From: Halobacillus mangrovi
GTDB lineage: Bacteria > Bacillota > Bacilli > Bacillales > Halobacillaceae
Direction: 5' to 3'
Assembly: GCF_002097535.1 (NCBI RefSeq)
Contig: NZ_CP020772.1
Location: forward strand, 3,326,501-3,390,500
Length of the DNA: 64,000 nucleotides
Both the position numbers and the translations under genes were made by a program. This document shows positions 30,984 through 63,659 of this stretch, piece by piece; position 1 is the stretch's first letter; every line of letters begins with the position of its first letter. The notes beneath the pieces are model-generated. The model ran no database searches. It was not told where the DNA came from and saw only the letters and a program-made list of their open reading frames with translations.

Positions 30984-31973
30984 ATGACATCCTTTCAAGC
31001 TTTTAAAATCACAAAGTCTGAGGATTCAATTACATCGAATATAGAAACTTTATCTCAAAAAGACCTTCCTTCCAGTGATGTACTTATCCGTGTCCATTAT
31101 TCCAGCGTAAATTATAAAGACGGAATGGTATCTCAACTTAATAACGCACTGGTAAAAGAATATCCGATCGTTCCTGGGATTGACCTTGCTGGTGAAGTCG
31201 TCTCCTCTAGAGATCCCAGGTTCAAAGAGGGAGATCGAGTTATCGCAACCAGCTACGAAATCGGTGTATCCCATTACGGCGGGTATAGTGAATATGCGAG
31301 CGTCCCGGCAGATTGGATTGTTCCTCTACCTGATGGACTAACACTAGAACAGTCCATGATTCTCGGAACCGCTGGATTCACTGCTGCCTTATCCCTACAC
31401 AAGCTGGAACAGCACGGTCTAAAACCCGAAGATGGACCAGTGCTTGTTACCGGAGCAACTGGCGGTGTCGGAAGTATGGCAGTAGCTCTTCTCGACAAAC
31501 GCGGGTACACCATAGAGGCAAGTACAGGAAGTCCTGAGCATAAAGCTTACTTAAAAGAATTAGGTGCGAATAAAGTTATCTCTCGCGAAGATGTCTATGA
31601 TAGTGAACTTAAACCATTATCCAGCCAGAAATGGGCAGCTGCTATTGACCCAGTCGGAGGAGGACAGCTCGCTTCCATCTTAGGAAAGCTTCAATACAAT
31701 GGTGCGGCGGCTGTCAGCGGTTTGACAGGCGGAACAAAAATCCCCACACAGGTTTATCCATTCATCCTCCGTGGTATTAGTCTTATTGGCATCGACTCTG
31801 TCTACTGTCCGATGGAAACAAGGAAAAAAGTATGGCACCGTTTAGCCAATGATTTGAAGATCAAGGATGCATTGGATCAAATGAAAATGACCATTACCCT
31901 TCAGGAAATTCCGGACACCTTAGAACAGATCCTTGCCGGTGAAACGCGCGGGCGTACGATTGTACAGTTATAA
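30984..31973 (+). CDS. yhfP: YhdH/YhfP-type NADPH quinone oxidoreductase
   Basis: This 329-residue medium-chain reductase lacks the zinc-binding cysteines and belongs to the YhdH/YhfP (acryloyl-CoA reductase, AcuI) group. Motifs are VNYKDGMVSQ, PGIDLAGEVVSSRDPRFKEGDRVIATSYEIG, the nucleotide motif VTGATGGVGSMAVALL and the terminal GRTIVQL. It reduces a conjugated enone or acryloyl-CoA with NADPH. Start ATG 30984 has AATGAGGTGA upstream. The link to the small charged gene in front is only positional. Confidence 0.85.
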   Translation: MTSFQAFKITKSEDSITSNIETLSQKDLPSSDVLIRVHYSSVNYKDGMVSQLNNALVKEYPIVPGIDLAGEVVSSRDPRFKEGDRVIATSYEIGVSHYGGYSEYASVPADWIVPLPDGLTLEQSMILGTAGFTAALSLHKLEQHGLKPEDGPVLVTGATGGVGSMAVALLDKRGYTIEASTGSPEHKAYLKELGANKVISREDVYDSELKPLSSQKWAAAIDPVGGGQLASILGKLQYNGAAAVSGLTGGTKIPTQVYPFILRGISLIGIDSVYCPMETRKKVWHRLANDLKIKDALDQMKMTITLQEIPDTLEQILAGETRGRTIVQL

Positions 31974-32009
31974 TTAGTATTGCGGTAGTTGGACGATCAA
32001 AACATAGAG

Positions 32010-32038
32010 TTGACAATAGCGATTGACCATACTATAAT
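32010..32038 (+). promoter_or_regulatory. Consensus sigma-A promoter for the 32-kb RNA candidate
   Basis: TTGACA (32010-32015), an exact 17-base spacer, and TATAAT (32033-32038) make a perfect vegetative promoter. AATAGCG in the spacer is mirrored by CGCTATT at 32055-32061, which could be an operator. No gene with a good ribosome binding site follows within the transcript. Confidence 0.85.
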
Positions 32039-32044
32039 AATTAA

Positions 32045-32355
32045 TTAGTGCCTTCGCTATTAAGGTAACTCGGAATATGAATTAAATAAGAAAAGAGTGA
32101 TTTGTATGAGACTGGCATTCTGCTATGTTTTGATACAACTTAATCACACTGGATCAGCTTCGGAGCTGTAAGGATGCAATAGAGGTAGGGATTGCGTCGT
32201 TTAAGTTGCCAAAAACTACCATGTAGAATTTGAACCGCGGCAAGTGGATGATTCACATAACATCCGATGCTTGTTTGTAAAAAGTAACAAGTAGAATTTC
32301 ATATTTTCCGAAATATAACCAAAAGCGAGTCGGACGACGGTCTGACTCGCTTTTT
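32045..32355 (+). ncRNA. Candidate structured non-coding RNA, about 310 nt
   Basis: The stretch runs from the expected start of a perfect promoter to a strong terminator. CAACTTAA (32136-32143) pairs with TTAAGTTG (32201-32208) and encloses two hairpins: CAGCT/AGCTG with a TCGG loop (32155-32168), and GATGCAAT/ATTGCGTC (32173-32198). This is a three-way junction. A further stem joins CAAG/CTTG and GGATG/CATCC (32241-32273). A 21-codon frame from ATG 32106 lies inside but has only a weak ribosome binding site. I match it to no known RNA family (not tmRNA, RNase P RNA, SRP RNA or T-box). It could also be a leader of the next gene, but that gene has its own promoter candidate. Confidence 0.6.
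32321..32355 (+). terminator. Intrinsic terminator of the RNA candidate
   Basis: AAAAGCGAGTC and GACTCGCTTTT form an 11-bp stem with extra inner pairing GAC/GTC, followed by TTTTT. Confidence 0.9.
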
Positions 32356-32368
32356 CCAATTTAAAGAC

Positions 32369-32394
32369 GTTTACACTCTCCGCTGCATGGTAAT
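32369..32394 (+). promoter_or_regulatory. Sigma-B-like promoter
   Basis: GTTTAC, 14 bases, GGTAAT resembles the sigma-B consensus GTTTAA-n12-14-GGGTAT. It lies 36 bp before the hypothetical gene at 32430. Confidence 0.4.
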
Positions 32395-32429
32395 ATAAGT
32401 CGTAGAAGCCATGAAGGAGGCCCCATGCT

Positions 32430-32825
32430 ATGTCACAATACTTAAATCGCATAGAACCAGAAGATGTCCGTTTTTTAATGGACCTCTCTGAGCTTAAACA
32501 ATATGTCGTTGAAATGCTTGGTGAAGCCAAAGATCTTGTTCAGATTGAGATCAGCTACGATCAATTTACAGATGCCTATGATACAGCGGTCATCAGGCCG
32601 ATGGTAAAGTTAGAGGAAATCAGTGATTTTACGGAAGAAAATCGTCATACCCTGCTTTCAACAGGTTTTTCGATTGATCGTGAGCCTTATGATAACGGGG
32701 ATTTTGCAATGGAACAAATCTTTGGTCAAGAATATACCATCGTTGATGTGAACGATGATGCTGACGGAGCTTTTTTCACGATTGAGATGCCTTACCATCA
32801 TTTTGTTAGCCAAAAAGAATCATAA
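32430..32825 (+). CDS. Conserved hypothetical protein, possibly YhcU-like
   Basis: This 131-residue soluble acidic protein (MSQYLNRIEPEDVRFLMDLSELKQYVVEMLGEA...) has a mixed helix and strand content and no recognisable motif. It might belong to the YhcU/DUF5365 group, but this is a weak recollection. GAAGGAGG stands nine bases before the ATG. The gene lies between the RNA candidate and its own terminator (32841-32874), so it is monocistronic, perhaps under a sigma-B-like promoter and so part of a stress response. The function is unknown. Confidence 0.6.
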   Translation: MSQYLNRIEPEDVRFLMDLSELKQYVVEMLGEAKDLVQIEISYDQFTDAYDTAVIRPMVKLEEISDFTEENRHTLLSTGFSIDREPYDNGDFAMEQIFGQEYTIVDVNDDADGAFFTIEMPYHHFVSQKES

Positions 32826-36093: not shown

Positions 36094-36408
36094 TTAATTT
36101 TGACTTCCTTTTGCATATTTACCTTGTCGACCGTATTCCTTATTTGTTGCTTCACTACGATTTTCTCCGCTTTTTCCTTGGCTGCTGTTATTGCTGCTGT
36201 CTCCATAGGAATGCTGATTCTGGATTGTACCGTCCTTCTTATGGATGACTGCGGATGTTCCTTTGTTTTCAGCGATTTCCTTCGCACGATCAATTGCATC
36301 CTGCTTGTTGTCATAAACTTTAGTCGGCTGTTCTGCACCTTCAGCTTTCACTGCCCAGCCATCTTCGTGGGCTACAACGTGTTCTGCTTTATTTCTAGAA
36401 TCTGCCAT
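36094..36408 (-). CDS. DUF2188 protein, short
   Basis: This 104-residue protein has one DUF2188 unit: HVVAHEDGWAVKAEGAEQPTKVYDNKQDAIDRAKEIAENKGTSAVIHKKDGTIQNQHSYG. It is followed by a Ser/Gly/Asn/Gln-rich disordered tail. The fold is a small beta-alpha unit; function unknown. It is a paralogue of the second half of the next gene upstream. A sigma-B-like promoter sits directly before it, fitting a general stress role. AGGAGGGG precedes the ATG. Confidence 0.82.
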   Translation of the reverse strand: MADSRNKAEHVVAHEDGWAVKAEGAEQPTKVYDNKQDAIDRAKEIAENKGTSAVIHKKDGTIQNQHSYGDSSNNSSQGKSGENRSEATNKEYGRQGKYAKGSQN

Positions 36409-36444
36409 GTTTCTTCCCCTCCTAAGTTGATTTATATTTGCTAT

Positions 36445-36470
36445 ATATCCATCTTACAAAATTTGTAAAC
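36445..36470 (-). promoter_or_regulatory. Sigma-B-like promoter for the short DUF2188 gene
   Basis: On the minus strand GTTTAC, 14 bases, GGATAT resembles sigma-B consensus. It begins just past the stop of the upstream DUF2188 gene, 37 bp before the ATG. Confidence 0.5.
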
Positions 36471-36471
36471 A

Positions 36472-36942
36472 TTATTTTTCGTTGTTCTTATAGGAAATTT
36501 TATCTTGGATAGTTCCATCCCTTTTATGAATGACGACTTGTGTCCCTTTATTTTGAGCAATTTCTTCCGCTCTTTCGACAGCATCTTCCTTTTTATCATA
36601 AACATTAGAAGGCTGCTTCGCATCTTCCGCTTGAACGGCCCATCCTTCTTCATGTGAAACCACATGTTCTCCTTTGTCGAGAAGCTCTGGACGGCTTTCA
36701 TACTGCTGATCTTCAGCATCCCGCTCTTTAAGATCAGAATCACTCATTTGTTTAACTCGATTTATTTCTTTTTGGTCTGCATTCTCATACCATTCTTTAG
36801 CTTGTTCCGTTGCGATCGGGATCGCTCGCCCTTCATCATATCCTTCATCAATCATAGCGTTAGCGATGTCTATTGCTTTCTTTCTAACCGCGGTGTCCAG
36901 GTTTTTAAATGAACTTGGATAATCGTTACTGTCCCAAGGCAT
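36472..36942 (-). CDS. ydaT: DUF2188 protein with YdaT-like N terminus
   Basis: This 156-residue protein has an N-terminal helical unit (MPWDSNDYPSSFKNLDTAVRKKAIDIANAMIDEGYDEGRAIPIATEQAKEWY), a charged linker, and a C-terminal DUF2188 unit (HVVSHEEGWAVQAEDAKQPSNVYDKKEDAVERAEEIAQNKGTQVVIHKRDGTIQ). The layout is that of B. subtilis YdaT, a sigma-B-dependent general stress protein of unknown activity. A good sigma-B promoter lies 40-65 bp upstream. The second ATG (36942) has the better spacing to AAGGAGG. Confidence 0.8.
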   Translation of the reverse strand: MPWDSNDYPSSFKNLDTAVRKKAIDIANAMIDEGYDEGRAIPIATEQAKEWYENADQKEINRVKQMSDSDLKERDAEDQQYESRPELLDKGEHVVSHEEGWAVQAEDAKQPSNVYDKKEDAVERAEEIAQNKGTQVVIHKRDGTIQDKISYKNNEK

Positions 36943-36982
36943 CATCAGTTCCTCCTTAACTTAACCATCTCTGTATGTGTAT

Positions 36983-63425: not shown

Positions 63426-63659
63426 AAATATCTTAAATTCTAAGAAAAAGAGAGTAGCTAATGTGGAACGGACAGCGAGTCAGGGAAGGTGAAAGCCTGA
63501 TACGATTCCCAATAGTGAACCGGACTTTTGAGAAGCCATGCCGAACGTTAAGTAGGTATGGCCGGGGATCCCCGTTACCAAAAACCAAGCGGCTTTTTAG
63601 CTAGAAGAGTGGTACCGCGAGCACAAACCTCGTCTCTTACATGGAGACGGGGTTTTTTA
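63426..63659 (+). ncRNA. T-box riboswitch leader of argS
   Basis: The leader has the early AGAGAGTAGC element, long stem I, and the T-box GAGTGGTACCGCG (63607-63619) that pairs with the acceptor end of uncharged tRNA. A terminator stem, CCTCGTCTC with GAGACGGGG followed by Ts (63628-63659), is the alternative to the antiterminator. A CGA at 63503-63505 might be the arginine specifier codon, which fits the gene downstream, but I could not confirm its place in the loop. Low charged tRNA-Arg should switch argS on. Confidence 0.9.

Follow-up and report, generated by a model that had tools for sequence, protein, structure and literature searches.

The closest described relative of the RNA analysed here is BsrC of Bacillus subtilis, which was reportedly described as an sRNA by Saito et al. 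in 2009. In B. subtilis the bsrC region is expressed, its segment being joined with an upstream gene (PMC2784878, excerpt) that we read as ydaG. BsrC forms the first row (53.6-fold) of a table of B. subtilis sRNAs associated with Hfq (PMC3574147, excerpt), and another paper (PMC8208703, excerpt) labels bsrC as a type I toxin-antitoxin RNA; the BSGatlas, as described there, has Rfam bsrC matching at a second site, located between cspC and ydeB. In P. riograndensis SBR5 an RNA-seq transcript of 322 nucleotides, s0008, on the minus strand at 0.688 Mb, was named BsrC via Rfam (PMC5670726, excerpt). The letters 'BsrC' stand for other things in the excerpts of PMC6425571 and PMC11805744. No paper on the function of BsrC was found in the literature searched.

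A second group of related systems are the sponge RNAs RosA and RsaI, stand-alone RNAs with an exposed G-rich sequence like the one described here (PMC8216469, excerpt). RsaI and, as the same excerpt appears to state, RosA are regulated by CcpA, whereas the best cre-like match at the promoter of our RNA has two mismatches and was rejected as a cre site. There was no Rfam match to RosA or RsaI in the stretch analysed, and RsaE/RoxS (RF01820) was not found in three of three Halobacillus genomes searched, but was found in all three others.

This stretch, 64,000 nucleotides of the Halobacillus mangrovi genome (the window), gave two matches in a cmscan of its whole length at the gathering threshold, a T-box and RF01410, the Rfam family BsrC. 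We regard it as very likely, judging from the sequences, that the latter marks a stand-alone, non-coding, structured plus-strand RNA that is related, as a long form, to a family found across the Bacilli, the core of which Rfam lists as BsrC on the wrong strand. Strand, structure, conservation, the sides of promoter and terminator and the lack of a reading frame open throughout are results of computation. This identity together with the trans-acting mechanism proposed below is our best overall explanation and appears rather probable. The features of the locus are the following:

32010 to 32038, plus strand: sigma-A promoter TTGACA-17-TATAAT, matching the consensus in 12 of 12 positions
32045 to 32355, plus strand: predicted transcript of about 310 nucleotides, its ends inferred from the positions of promoter and terminator
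32117 to 32123 with 32223 to 32229, plus strand: helix Palpha, from a permutation test and pairing in the genus set
32124 to 32210, minus strand: match to Rfam RF01410 (BsrC), 66 bits against a gathering threshold of 38, full model 1 to 87
32136 to 32143 with 32201 to 32208, plus strand: P1, the stem closing the three-way junction, from covariation
32155 to 32158 with 32165 to 32168 (whole hairpin 32155 to 32168), plus strand: P2 hairpin, from covariation, with GGA kept in its loop
32173 to 32180 with 32191 to 32198 (whole hairpin 32173 to 32198), plus strand: P3 hairpin, from covariation
32181 to 32190, plus strand: near-invariant P3 loop AGAGGYAGGG, the proposed partner-binding surface
32235 to 32241, plus strand: CCGCGGC, marker motif of the long form by the criterion CGCGG[CT]
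32322 to 32355, plus strand: intrinsic terminator, a hairpin of 15 bp followed by a U run (five U), -24.7 kcal/mol

An earlier note, made from the sequence alone, had stated that the RNA matches none of the common housekeeping RNAs known to its author. This was wrong or overstated, since the core is RF01410 on the reverse strand. The same note named an Rfam hit as a refutation, and formally such a hit exists; the RF01410 model, however, comprises 87 nucleotides of the other strand and its structure line pairs about one hairpin. Compared with the B. subtilis BsrC of Rfam, located between ydaG and ydaH, the window RNA has a homologous core and is also intergenic, but Rfam models about one hairpin on the minus strand, whereas covariation supports the P1-P2-P3 junction on the plus strand. 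Palpha, ACCGCGGC, the promoter, the terminator and the neighbouring genes lie beyond what Rfam BsrC describes: the RNA is flanked by genes for a zinc-type dehydrogenase and a protein of 131 amino acids without Pfam match, which is not the ydaG-ydaH setting. The RNA is homologous to a named family, of which it is a longer variant on the opposite strand.

The three-way junction, in which an 8-bp stem closes two further hairpins, had been proposed in the earlier note and is supported by covariation. In alignment A1 (58 rows, 21 pairs), comprising 57 of 234 cores kept at no more than 90% identity and the window, 95.8% of the cells are paired. The compensatory changes in relatives that had been suggested as a check are present, with double-sided changes in 16 of the 21 pairs; none of 500 shuffles equalled the structure on any of five measures, and slid controls pair only 30–49%. 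Both-side changes occur in all five pairs of P2 and in five of the eight pairs of P3, in which 97.8% of the cells are paired, and in the genus set 174 of 174 scored cells of P1 are paired. Twelve of the loci fetched up to L246 lie outside the core set, namely L067 (a copy of L011) and 11 filter failures; L098, among the loci outside this set, belongs to the long form and has a changed loop. The evidence for the 8-bp stem is comparative, since the minimum-energy fold of the lone sequence lacks P1 (pair probabilities 0.0); with the junction enforced, the energy of the whole predicted transcript lies 7.2 kcal/mol above that of its minimum-energy fold. The comparison of sequences indicates that the three-way junction is real. 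A plus-strand model, R1, scores the window's genome at 85.1 bits on the plus strand, the window itself being one of the 58 model sequences. A fourth stem had also been claimed to follow the junction. The lone fold indeed contains further hairpins downstream; the helix found to be conserved there is Palpha.

Watson-Crick pairs read alike on both strands, whereas G-U pairs turn into A-C mismatches when the opposite strand is read. In the junction structure the 58 sequences contain 1007 Watson-Crick, 159 G-U, 7 A-C and 44 other mismatched cells, the latter favouring neither strand. Earlier RNAalifold structures of the two forms (51 and 61 sequences) gave 76 G-U versus 2 A-C and 202 versus 3 cells, with a bias toward the plus strand since they had been derived on it. 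The consensus folding energy was -12.6 on the plus versus -6.9 on the minus strand for one form and -10.6 versus -4.3 for the other. Promoters with at least 10 of 12 matches were found on the plus versus the minus side in 29 versus 1 of 39 thinned long-form loci and terminators in 30 versus 2; for the other loci (78 thinned) the numbers were 23 versus 6 for promoters by the same cut and 29 versus 5 for terminators. A looser cut of at least 9 of 12 shrinks the promoter contrast to 33 versus 14 (long form) and 35 versus 22 (other loci). In six loci (five non-long-form, one long-form) a YdaG-like gene is located upstream, identified by a Pfam PNPOx_N match and named YdaG by our reading of the sequence, and the plus sense of the core follows the strand of this gene.

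These data bear on the possibility that Rfam is correct, in which case the minus-strand BsrC sRNA would be functional and the plus-strand features would belong to a separate or chance transcript. The 66 bits scored by RF01410 on the minus strand and the description of B. subtilis BsrC as an sRNA, reportedly by Saito et al. (2009), agree with it, but the G-U to A-C asymmetry of 159:7, the asymmetry of promoters and terminators and the folding energies of both forms all favour the plus strand and make it highly improbable. Thus, the functional RNA is very probably encoded on the plus strand, and the Rfam BsrC model would be on the wrong strand and omit most of the molecule. Since the functional strand is then opposite to the RF01410 model, we call the window RNA a homologue of BsrC rather than a member of RF01410 in its present form. 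A statement that the Rfam BsrC model is inverted was not found in the literature searched, a coverage that excludes the original BsrC report. The s0008 transcript of strain SBR5 is close in length to the predicted transcript, the two being compared by reported strand and coordinates only. In 15 of 24 single-contig genomes of one genus, which we read as Paenibacillus, the core lies on the minus strand at 0.47–0.63 Mb; the agreement with the minus-strand BsrC transcript at 0.688 Mb in P. riograndensis is only suggestive.

The RNA seems to be transcribed from its own sigma-A promoter, as had been proposed. A promoter scan with a cut of 9 of 12 found two promoter-like sites compared to 1.8 (s.d. 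1.2) in shuffles; because this is barely above the shuffles, the support for the promoter comes from the relatives. Loci were chosen from the genus and from two genera next to it, and in all of them (23 of 23) the top-scoring site upstream matches 10–12 of 12 positions, always with a spacer of 17 nucleotides. The mirrored pair AATAGCG/CGCTATT overlapping the promoter, for which a regulatory role had been suggested, occurs in one of the 23 loci only, that of the window itself, and this suggestion was wrong or overstated. In the 22 of 23 relatives with a pattern-detected terminator the predicted transcript is 273–362 nucleotides long, and the fold of positions 32045–32357 is better than those of 100 of 100 dinucleotide shuffles (z -4.7). 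The hairpin with Ts at the 3´ end was described correctly in the earlier note, its stem being 15 instead of 11 bp long. With 14 pairs counted in 22 sequences, 302 of 308 cells pair and several double changes are present. An automated terminator scan of 31900–32500, using narrow loop and stem rules, returned no site.

The gene for the 131-amino acid protein (32430–32825, plus strand) starts about 75 nucleotides past the terminator on the same strand, and a homologue follows the RNA in 21 of 80 unique long-form loci, as would be expected if the RNA were a 5´ leader or attenuator of this gene. We consider this very unlikely, as the terminator is kept by compensatory changes and no single gene family follows the long form in other genera (largest 45 neighbour clusters).

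The original proposal of a structured plus-strand RNA with its own promoter and terminator is supported, and no reading frame is open in all relatives. With regard to the type I toxin-antitoxin label of bsrC, for which a small ORF would be conserved, some relatives have a stop in each frame of either strand: in the long-form loci two plus-strand frames are stopped in 63 of 64 and 64 of 64 cases, and the third in only 19 of 64, being open across the core in the remaining 45. In the other loci the three plus-strand frames are stopped in 90, 95 and 98 of 113. An ORF of 21 codons at 32106 was discarded, its frame not being kept outside the genus.

The core occurs in two settings. In the long form, which the window carries, it is accompanied by Palpha and then by ACCGCGGC; loci without the long form share the core only. 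Defined by CGCGG[CT] within 75 nucleotides of the core end, the long form accounts for 56 of 125 loci, spanning 27 genera by hand count, and for 80 of 212 unique loci in a later set, 'unique' meaning not identical around the core, so that close relatives remain. No description of the long form was found in the literature searched. For Palpha an alignment-free permutation test was used, for which the 82 long-form loci were thinned to 39 and the 146 other loci to 78. In the long-form loci the flanks of the same locus pair with a mean of -7.28 kcal/mol versus -5.80 kcal/mol for mismatched flanks, and none of 5000 re-pairings matched the own-flank mean. The effect concerns the mean, as the flank of the same locus is the best partner in no more than three of the 39 loci and among the best tenth in seven. 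In the genus set 144 of 152 scored Palpha cells are paired. A comparable helix in non-long-form loci is marginal, 219 of 5000 permutations being as good.

Members of the family are widespread. RF01410 is present in 36 of 41 relatives and, at the level of the order, in 249 of 299 genomes. With model R1 the core was detected in 155 of 299 genomes from the class and in 74 of 75 from one genus. Among 299 genomes from the phylum it was detected in 11, ten belonging to the same class and one match being weak, and of the 21 genomes missed by RF01410 the model recovers three. Copies in phages and plasmids were searched for and none were found. Since the family reaches so many genomes of the order and the class, with named species of Bacillus, Paenibacillus and Geobacillus represented in the core loci, its function is directly testable.

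The P3 loop is the most conserved unpaired part of the RNA. In 113 unique loci found with RF01410, all of which had passed a motif filter of at most two substitutions, nine positions are fixed in at least 112 loci and one is T or C. The invariance is quoted for these loci only, since the pattern used to collect the remaining loci itself contained the loop. Altered P3 loops are present in the divergent members L098, L249, L275 and L276. We tentatively put forward a mechanism in which a junction RNA made from its own promoter presents the loop and junction bases to a partner in trans. Sigma-A would transcribe an RNA of about 310 nucleotides from the strong promoter up to its own terminator, Palpha and P1 would hold up the three-way junction, and the junction would present to the partner its bases CACUGG/GGA/AAGG together with the purine-rich P3 loop AGAGGYAGGG. 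The RNA would be abundant and act in trans, with the loop as the site of binding. As partner we judge a widely conserved RNA-binding protein or RNP of the RNA-chaperone/cold-shock sphere most likely, because other copies of the core adjoin cold-shock genes.

Several candidate partners were examined. The loop of P2 keeps a GGA and the junction an AAGGA, as in a CsrB-like decoy that would titrate CsrA, and CsrA is commoner in core-positive (133 of 155) than in core-negative genomes (45 of 144), counts that ignore phylogeny. However, CsrA (PF02599) has no match in the window's own single-contig genome and is missing from 21 other core-positive genomes, and the second GGA lies partly within helix P3 rather than in a loop. 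A CsrA decoy is thus largely refuted for Halobacillus mangrovi and, for the RNA as such, hardly credible.

The loop is both G-rich and nearly invariant, and the G-rich regions of RosA and RsaI meet C-rich sRNAs (PMC8216469, excerpt), which would suit a RosA-like sponge capturing C-rich sRNAs such as RoxS or FsrA. Against this stands the failure to find RoxS in the three Halobacillus genomes. In the three other genomes, moreover, pairing between the loop and RoxS, the sole C-rich sRNA examined, was no better than in shuffles (361, 146 and 71 of 500 as good, RoxS strand), and a sponge seems quite improbable to us.

Hfq is present in the window's genome, but it was rejected as obligate partner since eight of 155 core-positive genomes had no match. 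Pairing with the anti-Shine-Dalgarno sequence was likewise dismissed: for the two 10-nucleotide loops 2003 and 1738 of 3000 shuffles were as good, with the G-C closing pair added 316 of 3000, and for the 12-nucleotide loop version of the window 1330 of 3000, which is not convincing. The tests of CsrA, RoxS, Hfq and the anti-Shine-Dalgarno sequence therefore favour a structural RNA that would offer loop and junction to a conserved partner.

The genes beside other core copies provide a hint as to the sphere of this partner. Within 2.5 kb of 132 unique non-long-form loci CarD was found 44 times, csp 42 times, a csp remnant five times and YdjO seven times, the CarD, CSD and YdjO neighbours being assigned by Pfam matches. 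Csp, a csp remnant or YdjO adjoins 50 of these 132 loci in several orientations (counts that ignore shared ancestry), and none of the 80 unique long-form loci. A DEAD-box helicase, read from the sequence, lies near 13 of the 132 versus two of the 80. The second B. subtilis match, between cspC and ydeB, fits the csp/CarD form of the core, YdeB being a CarD protein. The cspA thermoregulator is an Rfam family of csp leaders; some core copies lie in csp leaders as well, but the window has no such Rfam match and the long form no csp neighbour.

The core might be a cold-shock regulator, temperature-responsive or bound by Csp, acting in cis in csp leaders and in trans in the long form. The 50 loci with cold-shock neighbours and seven loci in which core, hairpin with U run and csp follow each other on the same strand speak for such a role. 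However, it leaves the long form without any such neighbour, the counts ignore shared ancestry, and csp varies in both strand and side relative to the core, unlike what a simple cis rule would predict; we consider a cold-shock regulator rather improbable. Because the long-form loci lack a cold-shock neighbour, the cold-shock link is indirect for the window, but would nevertheless be the best functional lead.

In the seven loci mentioned (L013, L239, L096, L108, L130, L233 and L238) the hairpin before csp is conserved, with variants, as UUCACRU-UUAUAA ... UUAUAAUAUGUGAA, and together with the U run it is possibly a cold-shock attenuator. A promoter-like site is visible by eye upstream of the core in L013, L239, L238 and L108. 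In six other loci (L009, L091, L093, L143 from Anoxybacillus, L189 from Geobacillus and L243) the core is followed by an ORF that reads as gamma-glutamylcyclotransferase-like, its earliest possible start codon lying 17–82 nucleotides past the start of the P3 loop; here the core is possibly a cis leader. In these apparent mRNA leaders, of csp and of the gamma-glutamylcyclotransferase-like ORF, the core is more like a cis element.

A broader reading, possible though somewhat unlikely, is that of a widespread RNP-type RNA of the Bacilli with near-housekeeping conservation in many families, the purine loop of which would dock a conserved partner and the module of which would have been recruited into some cold-shock mRNA leaders. 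Such an RNA would have been overlooked because its reference model describes the wrong strand and only some quarter of its length. If the preferred reading of a plus-strand long-form RNA is right, a public reference model has the wrong orientation and needs rebuilding on the opposite strand, with the complete junction included, and the RNA would be missed by probes, deletions and target predictions designed after the strand now listed. The cold-shock genes near other core copies would then be the first concrete functional lead.

Further helices were considered in the window RNA. An alternative 5´ helix (32097–32147, plus strand; GUGAU/AUCAC plus UUGUAU/AUACAA) competes with P1 and is preferred to it in the predicted fold of the lone transcript. 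In the genus set of 22 sequences most of its scored cells pair (107 of 110 for the first part and 115 of 129 for the second), so that a two-state RNA, a conformational switch, is possible. A helix closing the 5´ and 3´ ends (P0), seen by eye and in the fold only, has 64 of 123 scored cells paired in the alignment, and a 5´ hairpin, likewise visible by eye and in the fold, consists there of nearly all gaps; neither is claimed, since the row of the window is out of register in the alignment and the counts fail. A pseudoknot between AGGUAG of the P3 loop and CUACC at 32217–32221 was rejected because the loop is fixed while CUACC differs between genera.

Elsewhere in the window, the T-box leader (RF00230) is located at 63433–63640 on the plus strand with 109 bits. 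At 36094–36945 on the minus strand two similar small ORFs lie in tandem (HVVAHEDGWAVKAEGA... and HVVSHEEGWAVQAEDA...), a local duplication.
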